A program made the translations under genes and the position numbers. From Pomphorhynchus laevis (Eukaryota; Acanthocephala; Palaeacanthocephala; Echinorhynchida; Pomphorhynchidae), in NCBI GenBank assembly GCA_012934845.2, contig WNNJ02002244.1, forward strand, positions 1 to 64,000: a stretch of 64,000 bases of DNA, written 5' to 3'. Below the pieces are notes generated by a model. It did not search any database. It worked only from the letters and a program-made list of their open reading frames with translations, and had not been told where the DNA came from. Each line of letters starts with the position of its first letter. Position 1 is the first letter of the stretch. This document shows positions 14,524 to 63,542 of this stretch, piece by piece.

Positions 14524-14692
14524 ATCATCGTCATTATATATTAATGAAATTAATATATTTATTTAGTAAATTAATTTATTTAGTAAATTAATCCTATGTA
14601 TAACAATTCAGCTCTTTATCTGGGACAAAAAATAATTATTTTTTGTCCAGAAAAATAATTAAATGATAATAATAAAAAAATAATAATTAAAT

Positions 14693-15185
14693 GGTGTACT
14701 TATAAATAAATCATTGTTTTCCTCACAAGGAGTCATAAGCAGCATTCTAAATATCATCATCAGACCAAGAAATAGAACCGAATTATTCTCGCAATATTCA
14801 AAGTGGCTAAGTATGGCAAGTTATCCTATGTGTGACGACAAACCTCAACAACGGTATAAGCGTTTTGATCTAACGGAGCTCATCAATACTGTGACATCCA
14901 TAAGCACCTTAACACACGCTTAAATAGTGTTTAAAGCTCGAAAAACAGAACTGCCCTTAATCTGAATAATCAGATATGATTTAGCATAAGCTCTGGGCAG
15001 GCAGTGCGTAATGCGGATTAACCATGCATCAGGCACTAAATTCCTTTTAATAGAAATGCTGTTTTACAGGGACACTCTAAAGTGTACAAATATATAAAAT
15101 ATAATTTGTTGTTACACCTGCCGTGGGACACACAATGATGTACTCGTAAATAAATTGCTGTTTTTCTCATTAGGATGCATAAACA
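14693..15185 (-). repeat. Decayed copy of the hammerhead-bearing 464-bp unit
   Basis: This copies the 54762-55570 repeat: GTGTACTTATAAATAA, CCTATGTGTGACGACAAAC, ACCTTAACACACGCTTAAA, CATGCATCAGGCACTAAATT and TTGTTGTTACACCTGCC recur in order, and the unit restarts at about 15110 as in a tandem. On the minus strand at about 14854-14896 the ribozyme core is damaged: TTGATGA instead of CTGATGA and ATCAAAA instead of GCGAAA. A fossil retrozyme or PLE-LTR-like unit. Confidence 0.8.
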
Positions 15186-52454: not shown

Positions 52455-54090
52455 CACAATCAATGGATATTGCAAAGTCGTTGGAAATTGCGAATAGAAA
52501 TGCTGAACAATACCAACTTAAACATCAACAACTTGCTGCCTCAATTGAATTTCTCAATATCGATAAAGAAAAACATGAAATGAGAATGTCGGATATTTAT
52601 GTTGCCATATTTTTAAGAAAATGTTGGATTTGTGGAAATAATTGGCATTAAAGAAGATAACATTGTCAGGCGAAAGACACTAAATTTCTAAATTTTGGCA
52701 AGCTAGAACACTGGAAAATGTTTCCGCTATGTGTTTAAACAATTATCAGCAGATATTAAAATATGCACCGCATCAAAACGATCTCCCAATGAAGCAACAA
52801 ACATAACATCATAAATACGCGATATTGTTTTAACAATAAATCGATAAACACTGTCGGCAATTATTGATTTTGCAAGTTCAAGCAGCTATGTGAACACAAA
52901 AGTTGCACATTATCTTCAATTTACCATACACGAATATTATATTATTATTAACCTTGCGTTTTTAAATACACATATTTAAATACGAGGGCATTGCTTTGTT
53001 AATATACACATCAGCCAAAAGGAAATGAAGCTGTAAAGCTCAACATTTTAAAGGACCTTTGCCATACGTTATCCTAGGTCTTGACTCCCAAAGGTTTCAT
53101 GAAAGCATTCGTTTTGTCCACAATTGCGCATAAAGCGAATTTATTGTTCCTATAGAAAACAATACGTGCGACATCATGAAACCCGGCATGCTGAAAACTC
53201 CTCTTTTTGATTTTACGCCAAAATTCGTCAAGTCTAACGCCACTAAATCAAGAAAATTAGAACTAGATGTTCGGAAATTTACTCATTAAACAATGTGATT
53301 GAAACCTCTCGATCAACGTGGTTGGCTTAAGCTGTACACTTTAAAGGCGATTCGGAGCGCAGAGAGCAAATAATGGTTATTGGCTATTCAAAAACGGTCA
53401 ACAGATACACATCGCTTGACGCATATCCACTACCAAATCTACAAGATACCGTAAACAATACAGTTAAATATCGTGTATTTTCGATGTATAATCTCAAAAG
53501 CGCATATCATCAAATTGGGATTTTGAAGCAAAAATGGAAATACACGGCTTATGAGGCGAATCATATTTTAAAAAGTTCAAGAGATTACCCTTAGGAGGGA
53601 TAAACGAAGGCGACACATTCCAATGTGCAATTGATAACAAGATAGGCGAAGATGGTTTAATCTCTTCATACTCGAACTGGACAATGTCACAATAGCGTGT
53701 TTTGACAAGAAAAATCACGATCTTAATGTAAAGCGTTCTCTTCAAACAGCGAAATGCGAATTCTGACAATAAATCCAAATGTATGTCGTTTTCGTCAAAT
53801 TCATTAACTTACTGGGATATAACATAAGTAATAGAACAATTCGTTCTGATTCTGAGAGTTTACAATAACTCCTTGGAATGCCAATTCTTACAGATTTGAA
53901 GGGCCTTGCATGTATAATTGGAATGCTTGCATACTACTCTAGACCGATATACAATTTCGAATTGAAAGTCAAGATACTCTACAACTGTAGATGAGCTACA
54001 ACGGCAATTGATAGCAAGATAGGAGAAGATGGTTTTCGCTTTGTTAAAGCAAAACAAGTCTGCGCTGATAAATTGTTTCTTCACACATAG
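52455..54090 (+). pseudogene. Ty3/gypsy gag-pol remnant
   Basis: Gag end: helical 52463-52610, then CWICGNNWH and CQAKDTKFLNFGKLEHW, two CCHC zinc knuckles with some lost ligands. Pol: SRSTWLAQAVHFKGD (about 53311), GYSKTVNRYTSLDAYPLPNL (53380-53440), palm FSMYNLKSAYHQIG (about 53478-53520) in which the catalytic D of TIDL is now N, KYTAYEANH, then in shifted frames ISSYSNWTMSQ where YLDN would be expected and the connection region LLGYNISNRTIRSDSESLQ and GMLAYYSRPIYNFELK up to about 53970. Many stops and shifts. The protease is not recognisable, and RNase H and integrase are absent. It ends where the inverted hammerhead unit begins. Confidence 0.85.
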
Positions 54091-54129
54091 AATGACTGGG
54101 CATACGTGGCGACTTATAATTTTGCAAGA

Positions 54130-54500
54130 ATAATTCTGTTTTATTTTTAGTCTGATGAAAATATATAGAATGCTGTCTGTTGTTTATGCCTCCTTGTGAG
54201 GAAAACAGTAGTTAATTTATGAGTACACCATTGAGTGTCCCAGGGCAGGTGTAACAACAAATTATATTTTATATATTTGTACACTTTAAAGTGTCCCTGT
54301 AAAACAGCATTTCTATTAAAAGGAATTTAGTGCCTGATGCATGGTTAAACTGTAATAGTCACTGCCATGCACAGAGCTTATGCTAAATTTCCTCTGATGA
54401 TTCAGATTAAGGGTAGTTCTGTTTTTCAAGCTTTGGACATTGTTTAAGCGTGTGTTAAGGTGCCTATGGATGATTATTAAAGACACGGTACTGATGAGCA
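54130..54500 (+). repeat. Inverted, truncated copy of the 464-bp hammerhead unit
   Basis: Opposite orientation to 54762-55570: GTGTCCCAGGGCAGGTGTAA, TTTAGTGCCTGATGCATGG, TAAGCGTGTGTTAAGGTGCC, ending ACACGGTACTGATGAGCATA at 54500. The ribozyme's stem I and CTGATGA are kept, but the rest of the core is replaced by an alternating TA/CA tract. With the forward copies it forms a head-to-head arrangement, a layout common for Penelope-like insertions. Confidence 0.85.
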
Positions 54501-54762
54501 TATATATACATGTACATACATATATGTACATATATATGTACATATGTATGTATATATACATATATGTTTACAGCTGCACACAATGTATATATATTATATC
54601 ACTAAATTATTATATATAATATAATAATTAAATATAATTATATCATGATTATATTTATAATTATGATAATTATGATAATTATAATCATTATTATATTATA
54701 ATATAATAATATCACTAAATTATTATATTATTATAATATATTATATCACTATTATATCATAT
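54498..54762. repeat. Alternating purine-pyrimidine tract and TATAA low complexity
   Basis: 54498-54568 is a nearly pure alternation of TA, CA and TG (CATATATATACATGTACATA...), self-complementary and able to extrude a cruciform or form Z-like DNA. It is followed by ATTATAATTAT-rich sequence to 54762. It sits at the junction between the inverted and forward hammerhead units. Confidence 0.85.
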
Positions 54763-54962
54763 AATTTGTTGTTACACCTGTCCTGGGACACACAATGGTG
54801 TACTCGTAAATATATCACTATGTTTTCCTCATGAAGAGGCATAAACACCAGGCAGCATTCTATATATCCTCATCAGACTAAGAAATAGAACCGAATTATT
54901 CTTGCAATATTCAAAGTCGCTACGTTTGCCCAGTCATCCTATGTGTGACGACAAACTTCACA

Positions 54963-55004
54963 ACGGTATACGCGTTTCGCTCTAACGGAGCTCATCAGTA
55001 CCGT
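54963..55004 (-). ncRNA. Minimal type I hammerhead ribozyme (copy A)
   Basis: Minus strand: stem I ACGGTA (55004-54999), core CTGATGA (54998-54992), stem II GCTC-CGTTA-GAGC (54991-54979), GAA (54978-54976), stem III ACGCGT (54975-54970), cleavage base A at 54969 (GUA), then TACCGT (54968-54963) closing stem I with six pairs. Stem III is only AC/GU with a two-base loop, but ACGCGU is self-complementary, so two molecules can pair as in dimeric hammerheads of newt satellites and PLEs. All core bases match. Confidence 0.85.
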
Positions 55005-55426
55005 GACTTCTATAATCATCTATAGGCACCTTAACACACGCTTAAACAGTGTTTAAAGCTCGAAAAACAGAACTACCCTTAATCTAAATCATCGAAGGGA
55101 ATTAAGCATAAGCTCTGTGCATGGCAGTGACTATTACAGTTTAACCATGCATCAGGCACTAAATTCTTTTTAATAGAAATGCTGTTTAACAGGGACACTT
55201 AAAAGTGTGCAAATATATAAAATATAATTTGTTGTTACACCTGCCCTGGGACACTCACTGGTGTACTCATAAATATATCACTATGTTTTCCTCACGAAGA
55301 GACATAAACACAAGGCAGCATTCTAAATATCCTCATCAGATCAAGAAAGAGAACCGAATTATTCTCGCAATATTCAAAGTCGCTAAGTATGGCAAGTTAT
55401 CCTATGTGTGACGACAAGCTTCGACA

Positions 55427-55468
55427 ACGGTATACGCGTTTCGCTCTTACAGAGCTCATCAGTACCGT
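55427..55468 (-). ncRNA. Minimal type I hammerhead ribozyme (copy B)
   Basis: Same layout as copy A: ACGGTA (55468-55463), CTGATGA (55462-55456), stem II GCTC-TGTAA-GAGC (55455-55443), GAA (55442-55440), ACGCGT (55439-55434), A17 at 55433, TACCGT (55432-55427). The stem II loop differs from copy A (TGTAA versus CGTTA) while every paired and core base is kept, which suggests selection for structure. Cleavage at A and B would release a 464-nt RNA (55432 down to 54969). Confidence 0.85.
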
Positions 55469-55659
55469 GACTTTAATAATCATCTATAGGCACCTTAACA
55501 CACGCTTAAACATTGTTTAAAGCTCGAAAAACAGAACTACGCTTAATCTGAATCATCAGAGGGATGATTCTGCAATACACACTGCCGTGAATTCAACTAT
55601 AAAGTACGAGAAGCGTACTTTATAGTGAGGTTTAAACTTTCCAGTGAATTTACTTATTT

Positions 55660-57060
55660 CAGTCGAGAATTGATTTAATCATTTCTCTAATTTCGACAGG
55701 TGCGGGTGGTATGGGATTATTAAATGCGTCTTTACGTCACATATTGGTATGCGTGAGTTGTGGTGACGTCGTACACGTTCAATGTGTTGTTGGATTTGCC
55801 TGCCATGGTATCCCCTTCTAAGCAGCGTAGATGTCAGGTTCTGCATGAATGGTTCAATGTCAACACTCCTGTCGCAGTTATGGCTCATACGTAAAGCATC
55901 TCCGTAAGTTATCGACATCTTCATGCTAGTTAGGTGTTCACTAGTAGCATGTATGTAAGAAGTTGTGTTTTCCGGTTTTCGGTAGAACTTAGCGAAAAGT
56001 CTGCCTTTTTTTATTGAAAACCTCCGTATCTAAGAAGGGTAGGCTGGATCCGATCGTGTACGTGAGTTCTTAATGCCCATCTTTTTCATTTTAGAAGTAA
56101 ATTCGTGGGCAGTGCTTGGATCTTCGTACCAGACTACCAATATGTCATCATTGTGTTTTATTGCAGCTTTGGTTGCTGCTATCCCTTCTTCATATTGAAT
56201 GTTTGTATATAAGCTGTTGACATCTGCGGTGATGAGGCAAACTTGGTGGTCTTGTCAAGGTATCATGGCTAAACGCTTCTTTAGCTCAATCGAATTTGAG
56301 ATGTATGATGGGGTCGACATTGCAAGTTGCATAATTTGATCGTGAAGAAACCGCGCAAGGCGTTAAGTTGATGTACTAAAACTGCTGACGATTGATCTAC
56401 CAATGAATGCTCGCCCAGGTTAATGTACTTATGGAAGTAGATAAAATGCTCCGACTTTAGAATTCGACATTATCAGTGCTGCATATTCATGTGCTTGGAG
56501 TGACTTTTTTGCAACCTCACTCAGGAGAAAGTTTGAGATGGTTTCTGCGGCATCATTAAGTCGATCTTCAGTAGACACTTCGTATGTGGAGGAACTTAGC
56601 TTTCTAGTTCACTCTGTAATGTATTCAGACCTGCTCCCGATGACCGCTTGACAAATCTTATCCGCTCGCTTAATTATTATGCTTGAATCATTTCGGAGCT
56701 GTATTAATGCTCTTTGTAAATGCGGTGCGAGGTTGCAGGGTGAATGTCTCGTGACACCCTCTTTCACGTAGGGGGTCCATACACGCTTGACAAATAAGTT
56801 ATTGTACAAGACTTTATCAGACTCAGGAAGTTTAGATTGTTTGATGCTACTCGTTGTAGGTTGGTTGCTAGTGCGAATCTGTCAACAGGGTGATTAACAG
56901 CGAAGTTCAGCCCTAATTGTAGTAGCTCATCTTGATCTTCAGTTAGACAAATTCCTTCCGATGTTTCGATGGGTTTAGCGAGACCTCGCGTAGTAGATAC
57001 TGGTCGTAAGGGGTGACATCGTCGATTTAGATGATGTAGCAAATTTTGCAATTGTTCTGG
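55660..57060 (-). pseudogene. Penelope-like element RT, internally deleted
   Basis: Minus-strand order: N-terminal LTEDQDELLQLGLNFAVNHP (near 56930); LRNDSSIIIKRADK (the PLE KDKxIVIxxADKG block, near 56680); fragments like KYINLGEHSLVDQSS (near 56420) and ARFLHDQIMQLAMSTPSYIS; motif A ITADVNSLYTNIQYEEG (near 56220); immediately KHNDDILVVWYEDP (motif C, near 56150, with Y replaced by N); then KFYRKPENTTSYIHATS, YGDALRMSHNCDRSVDIE, LRRGYHGRQIQQHIERVR and IIPYHPHLSKLEK, the PLE C-terminal signature. RT motif B and about 150 residues between A and C are missing. Stops occur in between. The GIY-YIG endonuclease is not found downstream; hammerhead units lie there instead. Confidence 0.87.
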
Positions 57061-58425
57061 CTAGACTCGTAGGTGCGTCTATCTCGAAATCTTTCTAGCT
57101 TTTTTGTAAAGACATTTTTCGTAAAACCAGTGGTCGAGGGACGTACGTTCACGATTATAAACGTGTGCGTAGAAATTGCGCAGTATAACAATTATGCGCA
57201 TGGTGTATTCATCCAGAGCGAGATTCCATTACCTTTCCATCCGGTGACGATATTCCTTGACAACCAAGTTTCAATTGACAGTCATAGTGTTGTTTAACTT
57301 GGGGCCCTTTGGAGGTATACAATTTTTTGTGCAATATGTTAGAAACTGTCTATGAGCAAAAATTGTAGATCACTGCTGGGGATTTAGCTAGATCCAGGTT
57401 CGGATTCGGAAATTGATATTATATATATTAACTTTGTTTTTTGAACTTTTAGTGTATCTACACTCGCCCCGGGACACATACCGGTGTACTTGTGAGTTTG
57501 TGAGGTTTCTCCTATATATTGCAATACTTATATTCTCTCGGGACTCTTCTCTGTTGTAGGAAATGCGAGTCTGACCCGATTTTATTCCTTTCTCTCTGAC
57601 CTTATTCGCCAACATCAGATCACCTCTCATGACCTTATTCGCTGTCGGGTAGAAAAAGATACGTTGCTTAGAAGGGGGTTCCACTTTAATCCCATCAGAG
57701 TGGATTTCTTTCAGGCACCTATCTAACTCATACCTAGAATTGGTAATGAGAGTTTGACCGAATTTAATTCCTACCTCTCATCGCAAGGTACCGCGATACT
57801 TTCGACTACCTATAAACATCGTTTATTCAATCCCAATCAAACAAAACTAAAGGTTCTAGCTAAAATGCTACACTTTCCCAATCTATCACTTTCAGTCAGA
57901 CAGGCTCTCTCGAGCAAATATTAAAGCTCAGATATAAATCCCAGCTGAGTAAGGATAAGGTGAGCATTGCCAGTTTTAACGCTTATCAGTCTTCATTTGG
58001 AAGTTATTCAAGGAGAAGTTATTCTACTAGAGGGAGAGAGCTTTAGGTTTTTATTAATATTATATACCTTGATAAAGTTTTAGAGGAATTACTATCCCTT
58101 CACAATTATGGAGCCACTCAGTCTTTTCAATCAATCACCAACTGAGGTGACTCCATTAGCAGAGATTTATCTGTTGTTACAGATATCCTAAACTTCTGGG
58201 ACCATTTCCGGGCACCTCCAGATCCCACTCGTGTCTGTCAACCTTTGACAAACAGTCAGATAAATGAGGTCGCCATCACCATTTTTTCAATTACCATCGG
58301 ACGAGGCGGCTTTTAGCCACCTCGTCAGATAAAGCTGGCGTAATCATTAGGTGAAGGGTATTTTTAGCGAAGAAAAAATCGATAACATGTCCTAAAGATC
58401 TGCGGTCCATTCCGATGCTGAATTC
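57061..58425. other. Unassigned, GC-richer sequence next to the PLE
   Basis: 57465-57500 (CGCCCCGGGACACATACCGG) resembles the CCTGGGACAC-CA-TGGTGTACTC part of the 464-bp unit, so a diverged terminal repeat may lie here. The 98-codon minus frame at 57388-57684 and plus-strand strings such as FNSYLSSQGTAILSTTYKH near 57760 match no family I know. Confidence 0.4.
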
Positions 58426-58427
58426 CC

Positions 58428-59290
58428 TCATATCTTTTTACGAATAAGCGCTTGCGCGTAGTTATTATAGATATTATAACATATAAATGTATATCTAAAT
58501 CCAAATATAAAGTTAATTAATTTTACTAACGCTTCTTTAATATCTACTAAATCTAAATTTGTACTTTCTCGATCAAATAAAATCGCTATTATGTATATCG
58601 CTAAAATCACTGTATATGTATATCTTTTTCCGAATATAAGATTAATTAATTTTTCAACGCTTCTTTAATATCTACTAAATCTAGATTTGTATAAAGCGTA
58701 CTAAAATTGTACGTATTTAATATTTTAATATTTAATATTAAAAATATTAATATTAAATTTAGTTAAATATTTTAATATTTATTAAAATATTTAACGATTC
58801 TTATAATTTAATATTATCCGTATATTTATATTTACTTGATGGTTTAATTTTTGTAAGATATACGTTATAGTTATTATAACATATATATGTATATCTTTTT
58901 CCGAATATAAGGTTAATTAATTTTGCTGACTTATTAAAATAAGTCAGCTATAATTGGGCTACTATTACCACCCATTGGAACACCTTTTATTTGTCGAAAT
59001 ATAGATGTCCCTACCTTTAAACAATTTTGATTTATCCAAATATTTAAGGATTTTATTAATTCAATTTTATCCATATATTTATATTTATTTGATGGTTTAA
59101 TTTTTGTTAGATAGGCGTTATAATTATAACATATATATGTATATCTTTTTCCGAATATAAGATTAATTAATTTTTTCGACGCTTCTTTAATATCTACTAA
59201 ATCTAGATTTGTATAAAGCGTACTAAAATCGTACGTATTTATATTCTGAAAATTTATTCCTTTTGTGTGTAATATATATAATATATACAT
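58428..59290 (-). pseudogene. Second Penelope-like RT fragment with copied pieces
   Basis: The best frame (58934-59290) reads YDFSTLYTNLDLVDIKEASK (RT motif A), a spacer with FGKRYTYICYN, then TSIFRQIKGVPMGGNSSP and IIADLF (motif B and the following conserved LADLF), close to PLE-type RTs (DFSTLYT, GIPMGTNCAPLLADLFL) but a different lineage from 55660-57060. It is cut right after LADLF. The motif-A piece (TCTTTAATATCTACTAAATC on the + strand) recurs at about 58530, 58665 and 59190, and the KRYTYICYN piece also at 58884, so parts were copied locally. Confidence 0.7.
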
Positions 59291-59840
59291 ATATATTATA
59301 TAAGATTATTTTCTTTCTCGATCAAATAAAACCGCTATTTTCCGATCTTATAAACAATGGTGGCTTAGAAATGAATCTTTGAAATTTTTACCAAAACTGG
59401 TCGTTGTACTCAATCAGCCTCACGACTGCCGTTGTGCAAAACTGATTTAGCCGATTTAACTAGATAACTGATTCTACGTATTTTATACTATATAAAAATC
59501 AAAAATAAAGATACATAATTATAAATAATAAATAATTATATAAAATATTATATATTTTATGTATTTTCAAGAATACATAGTTTTAGTATTTCTGACAGAG
59601 GTTATATTACCGGGAAGCAAAGTCCACAGGTCAATAATAACTTGTCAGTAGAACAAGTTATATCAGCTAACCGAGTCTACGTATTTTATACTAAATATAA
59701 ATCAAAAATAAAGATAAATAATAAATAACTACAAGATTTTATATAACACTTTATTAAACTTTATAGTGCTTTATGGTTTGTAGCACACTGTAATGAATTA
59801 GCTGGTGAACTTGTGGCAAACGTTTACGTTTACACATCAA
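59291..59840. other. AT-rich, no gene
   Basis: A short sequence TACGTATTTTATACTA-ATA-AAATCAAAAATAAAGATA is present twice (59475-59515 and 59680-59715). No gene seen. Confidence 0.5.
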
Positions 59841-60517
59841 ACATATGCCGAACCGTTGTATAGTTTCGCAACGGTTCAACGGTTGCTTTGATGGCTGGCA
59901 TTCATAGTGAACGGGACGCATATAAGTCATCATCTAAAACGATTATGTAGTGGGTAATGGCATGTACGTGTGTTTAAATCAAATCATTGGCTGTGGGGCT
60001 CAGATCCCACTGGACCTGAGGCCATGAAGATGATAGAGTTAGTTGACAAGTTTTTCCGGAAGACGATGATTTCTGATTTCTGACGGCTTTTACTTTCTAT
60101 TTTTGTTTTAATTCTATTTAACCTATGTATAATTTTTGTTAAGAAAATCATTATTATTAATCAAATCAGCTAACAATTATCATAAACATATGCCGAACCG
60201 TTGTATAGTTTCGCAACGGTTCAACGGTTGCTTTGATGGCTGGCATTCATAGTGAACGGGACGCATAAATGTCATCATCTAAAACGATTATGTAGTGGGT
60301 AATGGCATGTACGTGTGTTTAAATCAAATCATTGGCTGTGGGGCTCAGATCCCATTGGACCTGAGGCCATGAAGATGATAGAGTTAGTTGACAAGTTTTT
60401 CCGGAAGACGATGATTTCTGATTTCTGACGGCTTTTACTTTCTATTTTTGTTTTAATTCTATTTAACCTATGTATAATTTTTGTTAAGAAAATCATTATT
60501 ATTAATCAAATCAGCTA
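59841..60517. repeat. 345-bp tandem duplication, GC-richer unit
   Basis: 59841-60169 and 60186-60517 are nearly identical (ACATATGCCGAACCGTTG ... AATCAAATCAGCTAA); I noticed only two or three substitutions. Each has the hairpin AACCGTTG...CAACGGTT followed by a third CAACGGTTG, and ends in a T-rich part with ATTATTATTAAT, as in 3' tails of non-LTR retroelements. A TCAGCTAA also precedes the first copy at about 59663. Non-coding; may be a SINE-like or retroelement 3' end. Confidence 0.85.
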
Positions 60518-62224: not shown

Positions 62225-63542
62225 TACAGCCCTTTTCAATTTTATAGTCACTAATCCCCTTTTTTATTTTTATAGTCACCTTTTTTCATTTTTATAGTCC
62301 CCCTTTTTTATCAATATTTTTTCAGACCCTTAAAAATGAATTTCTCCTTTTAATGGAAGTAATGAAAATAATACCGATGATAATGATATTGGAAGCGATT
62401 ATAATAACGATGGCTTACGTAAAAAAAGACAGACTATTAATAGACGTTTAGTAGAGCTTTTTCTAGAATTACTAAATAAAGGAATGTCTTTTAAAGAAAT
62501 TGTTCCCATACTCAATGTATCCTCAAGAACAATAAAACGACTTTACAAAAGATACACCGAAGGTGAGTTTGTTGTAATGTCTACATTTAGATCTGACCCT
62601 GAAAAGAAAATCAATACATTAAAAGATTTTTCTTTTGAGAAAAATATTATTGCTTCAGAAATCAGTCTTAATCCATGTGTTAGCTTAAAATCACTTGCGA
62701 AAAATTAAAACATAATAATGTATGTGGCTCATATTCAGTGCCAACAGTGTCAAGAATAATAAAAAAGATGAATTATTCTAGGAAAACTTTAACTTTAGTG
62801 CCGATAAATAGAAACAGCAATTCTAACAAAGACATAAGAGCTCAATATGGTACAGCATTTTCTAATATACATCATGATCAATTGATATTTTTAGATGAGA
62901 CTGGTTTTAATCTACATTCTTATCAAAGAATGGGATATTCACCTATCAATACAAAGTGTTTTATCAATGTTCCAAATTCAAAGGACACGAATATTTCATT
63001 TTAATGTGCTATTAATAATACAGGTATTGTAGGCTACCAAATAAAAAGCGGAAGTTTTAAGTATTTAGATATTCTTAATTTTGCTGAGACTAAACTACCT
63101 ATTTTGACACAAGATAATAGGAAGTATATAACTATGTACAATGCATCAATCCATAAGACAGCAGAGGTGAGGGAGTCGTTTTGTAGAAGAAACTATATCT
63201 TAAAGTTTTTACCTCCGTATTCACCTCAACTCAATCCAATAGAAGAGTTTTTCTCATGCTTAAAGTCTAGGGTGAAACAAAGAGAAGGCGCTGCTAATAG
63301 GGATGTTCTTATACATACGATTGAAGATATTCTAACTAATGATATATTTATAATTGAGAGGTTTTTAACCATATGCGTACATGGATAGAAAAAGCTATTG
63401 TTCGTACTGATTTTATTTAATTAGAATAAAATTTTATATTTTTCTATTATTTATTTTTTAACTTTTTATTAGTAACTATAAAAAATGAAAAAGGTGACTA
63501 TAAAAATGAAAAATGGTGACTCTAAAATTGAAAAGGACTGTA
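62225..63542 (+). mobile_element. Tc1/mariner-IS630 superfamily DNA transposon, complete ends
   Basis: 27-bp imperfect terminal inverted repeats start TACAGCCCTTTTC at 62225 and end GAAAAGGACTGTA at 63542; the outer TA is the target-site duplication and the ends CAG...CTG fit the superfamily. TTTTTATAGTCACC-like subterminal repeats lie inside both ends in inverted orientation. The element is about 1.3 kb, the usual size. Its single transposase gene is broken (see next). Few TIR mismatches indicate moderate age. Confidence 0.93.
62370..63388 (+). pseudogene. Tc1/IS630-type transposase, inactivated
   Basis: The N-terminal helix-turn-helix region (LLNKGMSFKEIVPILNVSSR, 62465-62535) is followed by a frameshift near 62700. 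The next frame has VSRIIKKMNYSRKTL (second HTH), the first catalytic Asp in IFLDETGFNLHSY (near 62895), a stop at 63002-63004, then MYNASIHKTAEV, where the expected second Asp (MDNASIH) is Tyr, and FLPPYSPQLNPIEEFFSCLK with the third acidic residue. Spacing from the second position to the Glu is 34 residues, so originally DD34E. One frameshift, one nonsense and one catalytic substitution make it dead in cis. Confidence 0.88.

Follow-up and report, generated by a model that had tools for sequence, protein, structure and literature searches.

The 464-nt direct repeat found in the window (the whole stretch of 64,000 nt of Pomphorhynchus laevis DNA that was analysed) is probably a non-autonomous retrozyme with a minimal hammerhead ribozyme of the Penelope-like element (PLE) type, whose mobilisation in trans would be carried out by the reverse transcriptase (RT) and endonuclease of PLEs. 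The anatomy of the array ends suggests, within one genome, a connection between hammerhead repeats and the PLE machinery that had earlier been proposed on weaker grounds. PLEs have been called a strong candidate partner of retrozymes (PMC7229834), and a 2020 review notes that there is no conserved retrozyme motif from which the mobilising autonomous retrotransposon could be deduced (PMC7761336). In the accessible parts of the open-access literature, no paper was recognised that links the ends of retrozyme arrays to PLE start sites; this comparison did not extend to the papers that described PLE hammerheads in 2014 and 2017.

The window contains 1.75 units of a noncoding 463/464-nt direct repeat on the minus strand, for which no long ORF is listed; the array is a 5'-truncated copy, and its partial units diverge by 7-10% from the full unit. 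The array and the related copies in the window comprise the following features, of which the flanking partial units, the inverted third copy and the degenerate second locus go beyond the first-pass annotation:

55433-55564, minus strand: first unit, 5'-truncated (unit positions 333-464)
55427-55468, minus strand: minimal type I hammerhead, upstream copy, predicted cut 55433/55432
54969-55432, minus strand: full 464-nt unit, from cut site to cut site (unit positions 1-464)
54963-55004, minus strand: minimal type I hammerhead, downstream copy, predicted cut 54969/54968
55489-55503, minus strand: GTGTGTTAAGGTGCC, upstream of the hammerhead, with a second copy at 55025-55039
55221-55275, minus strand: "tail" between the 3'-end sites A and B of the full unit, with TCCCAGGGCAGGTGTAACAACAA resembling PLE tails
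54753-54968, minus strand: last unit, positions 1-217, which stops at 3'-end site B and is followed by AT-rich DNA
54500-54752, no strand: spacer of AT-rich and (TA)n sequence that separates the inverted copy from the 3' end of the array
54078-54499, plus strand: third copy, inverted, covering unit positions 19-443, its tail facing that of the array
14692-15185, minus strand: second locus of the repeat, degenerate and with a mutated core, covering positions 123-464 and after them 1-174

Two minimal hammerheads with an intact core had been described in the first-pass annotation, and an exact pattern search recovered both, with two matches in the 64-kb window and none in 100 shuffles, while a stem-and-core descriptor gave no match across 30 simulated windows. 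Each motif has a stem I of six pairs (ACGGUA/UACCGU), a stem II of four pairs (GCUC/GAGC) and the elements that define type I hammerheads (CUGANGA, GAAA, an NUH triplet, stems I and II). CUGAUGA, GAAA and CGCGUA are identical between the two, loop II (UGUAA vs CGUUA) is the sole difference, as had been observed earlier, and the two cuts would fall 464 nt apart at the bonds predicted earlier. The checks by Rfam and by folding that had been suggested along with these claims gave negative results. Nothing in the window reached the Rfam gathering cut-off, and at a relaxed E-value only Hammerhead_HH9 was matched between 53500 and 56000 (17.6 and 16.9 bits, E 0.69 and 1.1, cut-off 52); single-strand folding of each motif was no better than that of shuffled sequences (z 0.39 and 0.60). 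The hammerhead assignment is therefore based on the identity of the motifs, their conservation from copy to copy and the dimer folds, and not on stability.

A canonical helix III, as expected of metazoan retrozymes, is absent from the window motifs: by sequence, stem III would consist of two pairs and a 2-nt loop, and its ACGCGU is unable to close inside one motif. The earlier proposal that a dimer may be the active form is supported in part by folding. In two-strand folding the dual hammerhead is energetically possible (-27.5 kcal/mol vs -28.4 to -29.7 kcal/mol for the best dimer), and its topology is that of the best predicted dimer in two of the three pairings of the window copies, but the 54969 copy paired with itself is predicted to prefer another fold (-29.7 vs -27.5 kcal/mol). 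The dimer idea and the retrozyme/PLE layout are both already known in principle (PMC7229834, PMC7761336). Minimal hammerheads in the pseudo-LTRs (pLTRs) of PLEs and Terminons were the subject of 2014 and 2017 papers, and a 2017 paper reported that PLE hammerheads cleave as dimers (all as cited in PMC7761336). The window motifs resemble them in being tandem, of type I, without a usable stem III and possibly active as dimers, and differ in that they occur here mostly in noncoding arrays.

When the 506-nt query was compared with the whole 249-Mb genome, at least 222 matches were found on at least 36 contigs besides the window's own, a lower bound, as 37 of 1414 candidate places were scored; an additional search revealed 7 further contigs with the 464-nt repeat. 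The longest array (C616) has at least 20 matches across 9.1 kb, i.e. about 20 units. The hammerhead core is intact in 113 of 124 units, and in a sample of 193 projected units or pieces the mean minor-base frequency was 0.012 at the 37 hammerhead positions versus 0.032 elsewhere in the unit. Metazoan retrozymes are characterised by tandem repetition of a noncoding unit, a few hundred bp long, that carries a type I hammerhead, as is the case here. They are also expressed as unit-length RNAs, linear and circular, and the first-pass annotation, whose comparison with retrozymes and PLEs was right in outline, predicted a corresponding 464-nt self-cleaved RNA. According to Cervera and de la Pena 2020 (PMC7229834), metazoan non-LTR retrozymes are likewise dispersed, noncoding tandem repeats of low GC content with type I hammerheads, occurring as dimers to long multimers. 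Unlike these, with their RNAs of about 170-400 nt, the present family has a 464-nt unit, a minimal PLE-type hammerhead and a PLE-like tail signature at the array ends. Two further motifs were noticed in other loci: a hammerhead candidate on the minus strand of L007, and a hammerhead-like motif with a long stem I near a different PLE (L033:2607-2660).

A genome search with Rfam Hammerhead_1 gave 65 matches, 62 of them above the cut-off, which belong mostly to one canonical type I repeat. This second hammerhead family has a unit of about 296 nt (L074-L085, e.g. L084:1501-1796) and fits the layout of metazoan non-LTR retrozymes as described in PMC7229834. The 464-nt and 296-nt units are dissimilar except for a 22-nt stretch, TTTmAGyGTGTGTTAAkGTGCC (BLAST E 0.001; L084:1755-1776 in the second family), to which GTGTGTTAAGGTGCC belongs and which possibly serves as a promoter or a binding site.

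The 3' ends of the arrays are concentrated at two sites. In the 464-nt family, 24 of the 35 true 3' ends fall in unit positions 150-170 or 203-226, versus 2 of the 34 5' ends (among the matches listed, for arrays of at least one unit, and with intervals drawn after seeing the data). Thirteen ends are of A type and 11 of B type, 11 of the 35 lie outside both intervals, and the 5' ends are scattered from position 1 to 442. Sites A and B are about 55 nt apart in the unit, and both are AT boxes. An (AT)n run of at least 8 was present within 60 nt of 20 of the 35 3' ends versus 5 of the 34 5' ends. The copies stand in differing flanks, and a target-site duplication of at least 7 nt was found in none of 33 insertions (control mean 0.63).

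The 296-nt family is a replicate of the two-site 3' ends, with sites of its own. Its 3' ends lie at 150-160 or 208-216 in 25 of 37 arrays, versus 1 of 37 5' ends; after one contig-edge array was dropped and the repeated C2913 copies were counted once, the counts became 23 of 34 and 1 of 34, with 11 of the 34 3' ends outside the paired sites. These counts rest on the best 150 of 175 matches, in which pieces shorter than about 105 nt are absent, so the 5' ends at 1-10 (9 of 34) and the 3' ends at 259-296 (3 of 34) may be artefacts; the other 5' ends in this set spread from 34 to 191. Unequal crossing-over and gene conversion in an ordinary satellite, with the hammerhead as a passenger, could account for the long arrays and for the agreement of adjacent units at common variable sites (84% of calls vs 71% when shuffled), as local homogenisation would give. 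Crossing-over predicts random ends, however, and here the 3' ends are mostly fixed, the 5' ends scattered, the (AT)n mainly on the 3' side and the copies in differing flanks, which makes this explanation very improbable.

Paired 3'-end sites recur in PLEs of the same genome. For a PLE with a 2854-nt tandem unit, 35 of 45 rows end within the query, 20 of them at q234 and 11 at q179, i.e. 55 nt apart. Many of its copies are 100% identical over the pLTR query, and the element apparently was active recently; by match spacing, it stands head to tail on C923, C997, C1370 and C1755 (L086). A second PLE, with a 589-aa frame (Pfam RVT_1, E 2.2e-8) and a GIY-YIG-like stretch recognised by eye, shows the paired-site pattern in part: 8 of 20 rows end within the query (6 at 152-153, 1 at 212 and 1 at 180), and the 12 that reach the query end (216), in (AT)n at L037, L038 and L039, are not end counts; ten more distant rows were left out. 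The hammerhead-like motifs of both elements look degenerate. ATATAT-like AT boxes occur at both sites in all four families, 50-59 nt apart, and on C553 (L039) one AT-rich tail joins a 464-nt array to the second PLE in tail-to-tail orientation.

The tails between the sites are also partly alike. The 464-nt unit and the 2854-nt PLE share TCCCAGG...GGTGTAA..CACAA, and their tail alignment is better than those of all 4161 other locus windows and 347 other unit windows, with 10 of 5000 shuffles as good. Between the 464-nt unit and the second PLE, none of 353 other windows and 9 of 2000 shuffles were as good. The likeness of the 296-nt tail to that of the second PLE is weak: none of 179 windows was as good, but 161 of 2000 shuffles were. 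The 464-nt and 296-nt tails show no significant likeness, with 777 of 5580 window pairs scoring equally well. In all these comparisons the likeness was seen by eye before testing, and the tail limits were picked after seeing the data.

Published work on PLEs describes the tail as the stretch of 30-40 bp between two RT start sites, which in the PAc system in vitro border the tail while both strands are extended (PMC11167929). The insertions described here agree with the integration of Penelope/Poseidon elements (PAc, PMC11167929; A. vaga, PMC3846280) in having two putative start sites that border a tail, AT-rich targets, 5' truncation and apparent extension of both strands, with inverted head-to-head copies that carry the tail on one. 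They differ in that the copied RNA would be noncoding, the sites are 50-59 nt apart rather than separated by a 30-40 bp tail, and target-site duplications were not found; some A. vaga Penelope insertions also have no such duplication (PMC3846280). Of the marks of PLE mobilisation, the two tail-bordering 3'-end sites and the head-to-head copies with the tail on one are present, and the target-site duplication is not. The two-site 3' ends common to two hammerhead families and to PLEs are evidence for the partner of these retrozymes and point to a short signal that can be tested.

A relic PLE adjoins the array in the window:

55607-57136, minus strand: relic Penelope-like ORF, upstream of the array on the minus strand, with ITADVNSLYTNI followed by further RT-like stretches, all picked out by eye, and with stop codons
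57471-57489, minus strand: exact match to the motif GTACACC-N5-GTGTCCC from the tail of the unit, lying upstream of the relic ORF

The 464-nt repeat might be the pLTR of the neighbouring PLE, and solo pLTR arrays by-products of its cis transposition, with no separate element involved. The relic ORF and the tail motif upstream of it would fit this, as would the unit pieces beside relatives of the relic at C586 and C1515; solo pLTRs are also known for A. vaga Penelope (PMC3846280). Such an origin is nevertheless rather unlikely, because noncoding arrays outnumber the PLE (at least 222 matches in 37 scored places, versus 10 matches on 7 contigs) and long arrays span many units. The DNA of the relic has relatives on 6 other contigs (74-88% identity), of which C2172, C102 and C1882 contain no 464-nt unit in the examined flanks (C1771 was outside the comparison), and among the relatives scanned the tail motif was found only at C1515, inside a unit piece. 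Motifs in the region upstream of the window's PLE are collinear with the unit, but 15 of 580 control windows of real sequence score equally, so homology is not claimed for this region. An RT and GIY-YIG ORF between pLTRs, as expected for an autonomous PLE, is not present at the window locus, where a GIY-YIG part was not seen by eye in the relic ORF, and no autonomous PLE was found whose pLTR is clearly homologous to the 464-nt unit.

Mobilisation in trans, the preferred reading, may be further specified from pairs of inverted copies. Head-to-head pairs with 5' ends within 200 nt number 9 in the 464-nt family, 7 in the 296-nt family and 7 in the PLEs (n=23); two C2913 pairs were counted once, and L024, L074 and L078 duplicate L020, C1798 and C308. 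One arm with an A end and one with a B end were found in 11 of the 23 pairs under the end-count intervals and in 16 under loosened ones (A 150-170, B 195-240, for both retrozyme families), and none of the 23 has two like ends, strict or loosened. If the arms were independent and even, the chance would be about 5e-4 for 11/11 and about 1.5e-5 for 16/16, with the intervals being post hoc. The 464-nt family alone gave 4 of 9 A/B pairs in the strict count and 5 of 9 in the loosened one. The pairs at L050, C1798, C2913, C308 and C518 fit only with loosened intervals, and 7 of the 23 do not fit even then (two at L017, and L055, L067, C285, C283 and C28). Two of the A/B pairs (C1927 and C125) have as their B end the query end in (AT)n. 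Two further candidates, C2459 and one L050 pair, did not enter the count, being uninformative because of an unlisted second 3' end or a locus edge. PLE pairs 1-5 kb apart, which are outside the 23, are also A/B (C1370, C261, C2727, C1637), and C2888 is uninformative. In A. vaga Penelope one of the two inverted pLTRs is reported to carry the tail in some cases (PMC3846280); A/B pairing thus fits a known trait of PLEs and makes it more precise. In vitro, PAc showed no strand difference in start site (PMC11167929). The pairing makes inverted PLE copies a countable prediction on the priming of both target strands.

Variation within units bears on the RNA that was copied. Mean r2 was 0.30 across the cleavage junction versus 0.05 between positions 63-92 and 157-178 within the unit (95% CI of the difference 0.07-0.47, bootstrap over 40 loci), at sites chosen after inspection. 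Given the linkage across the junction and little of it near site A, units seem to move with their hammerhead junction intact, the breaks lying near site A rather than where the ribozyme would cut. Together with the array ends, this makes linear monomers cut by the hammerhead an improbable template; in the copied RNA the junction seems to have been either uncut or joined again, and both a circle and an uncut multimer are possible templates.

Some short arrays are uniform at 12 common variable sites (L003, L005, L020, L025, L051, L053), and others are mosaics with two unit types in one insertion (L001, L002, L007, L013, L017, L055), as is the window array itself. Uniform arrays are compatible with a circle, and mosaic ones with a multimer, with jumping between templates or with exchange at a later time. 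The possibility that arrays are copied from uncut multimeric transcripts, with the hammerhead irrelevant to transposition, has to be taken seriously, its chances being not far short of even. A single monomer circle cannot give mosaic arrays at birth, and in PAc, according to PMC11167929, hammerhead mutants insert equally well and unprocessed RNA is described as the dominant substrate. If multimers were copied, the order of monomers might be conserved between arrays, and at rank 3 from the 3' end same-rank units are indeed slightly more alike (0.970, n=36, vs 0.955-0.958); at ranks 1-2, however, which hold most of the data, they are not (0.950 and 0.943 vs 0.946; region 231-464). The uniformity of the short arrays and the conservation of the ribozyme also speak against this possibility.

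From the array anatomy and the end sites common to PLEs of the same genome, mobilisation in trans may be pictured as follows. The PLE protein would recognise the tail stretch of the retrozyme RNA and nick AT-rich DNA, and cDNA synthesis would begin at either of the two AT boxes flanking the tail and run toward the 5' end of the RNA, through the intact hammerhead junction, over part of a unit to several units. Both DNA ends would be extended, so that a site-A product and a site-B product join head to head. The hammerhead, as a dimer of neighbouring units, would cut multimeric transcripts, and the cut pieces may be ligated into circles, letting the enzyme copy more than one unit. A stronger version might be ventured, and is offered tentatively, as it is more doubtful than probable: that hammerhead retrozymes carry a portable start signal, two AT boxes on either side of a tail with TCCCAGG...GGTGTAA, through which Penelope RT trans-mobilises them, with one box used per DNA strand, so that A-start and B-start copies join head to head, and with multi-unit arrays as rolling-circle products of ribozyme-made RNA circles.

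Several other repeats and frames were observed in the window. A frame with the RT-like FSTLYTNL, without a Pfam match, lies at 58934-59305 and 59839-60483, near two 300-nt direct repeats that are 99% identical and 345 nt apart. A 55-nt stretch (57542-57597) has at least 39 matches elsewhere in the genome at 85-94% identity. The HTH_23 and DDE_3 frames at 62340-63388 are probably remnants of one DDE transposase gene.
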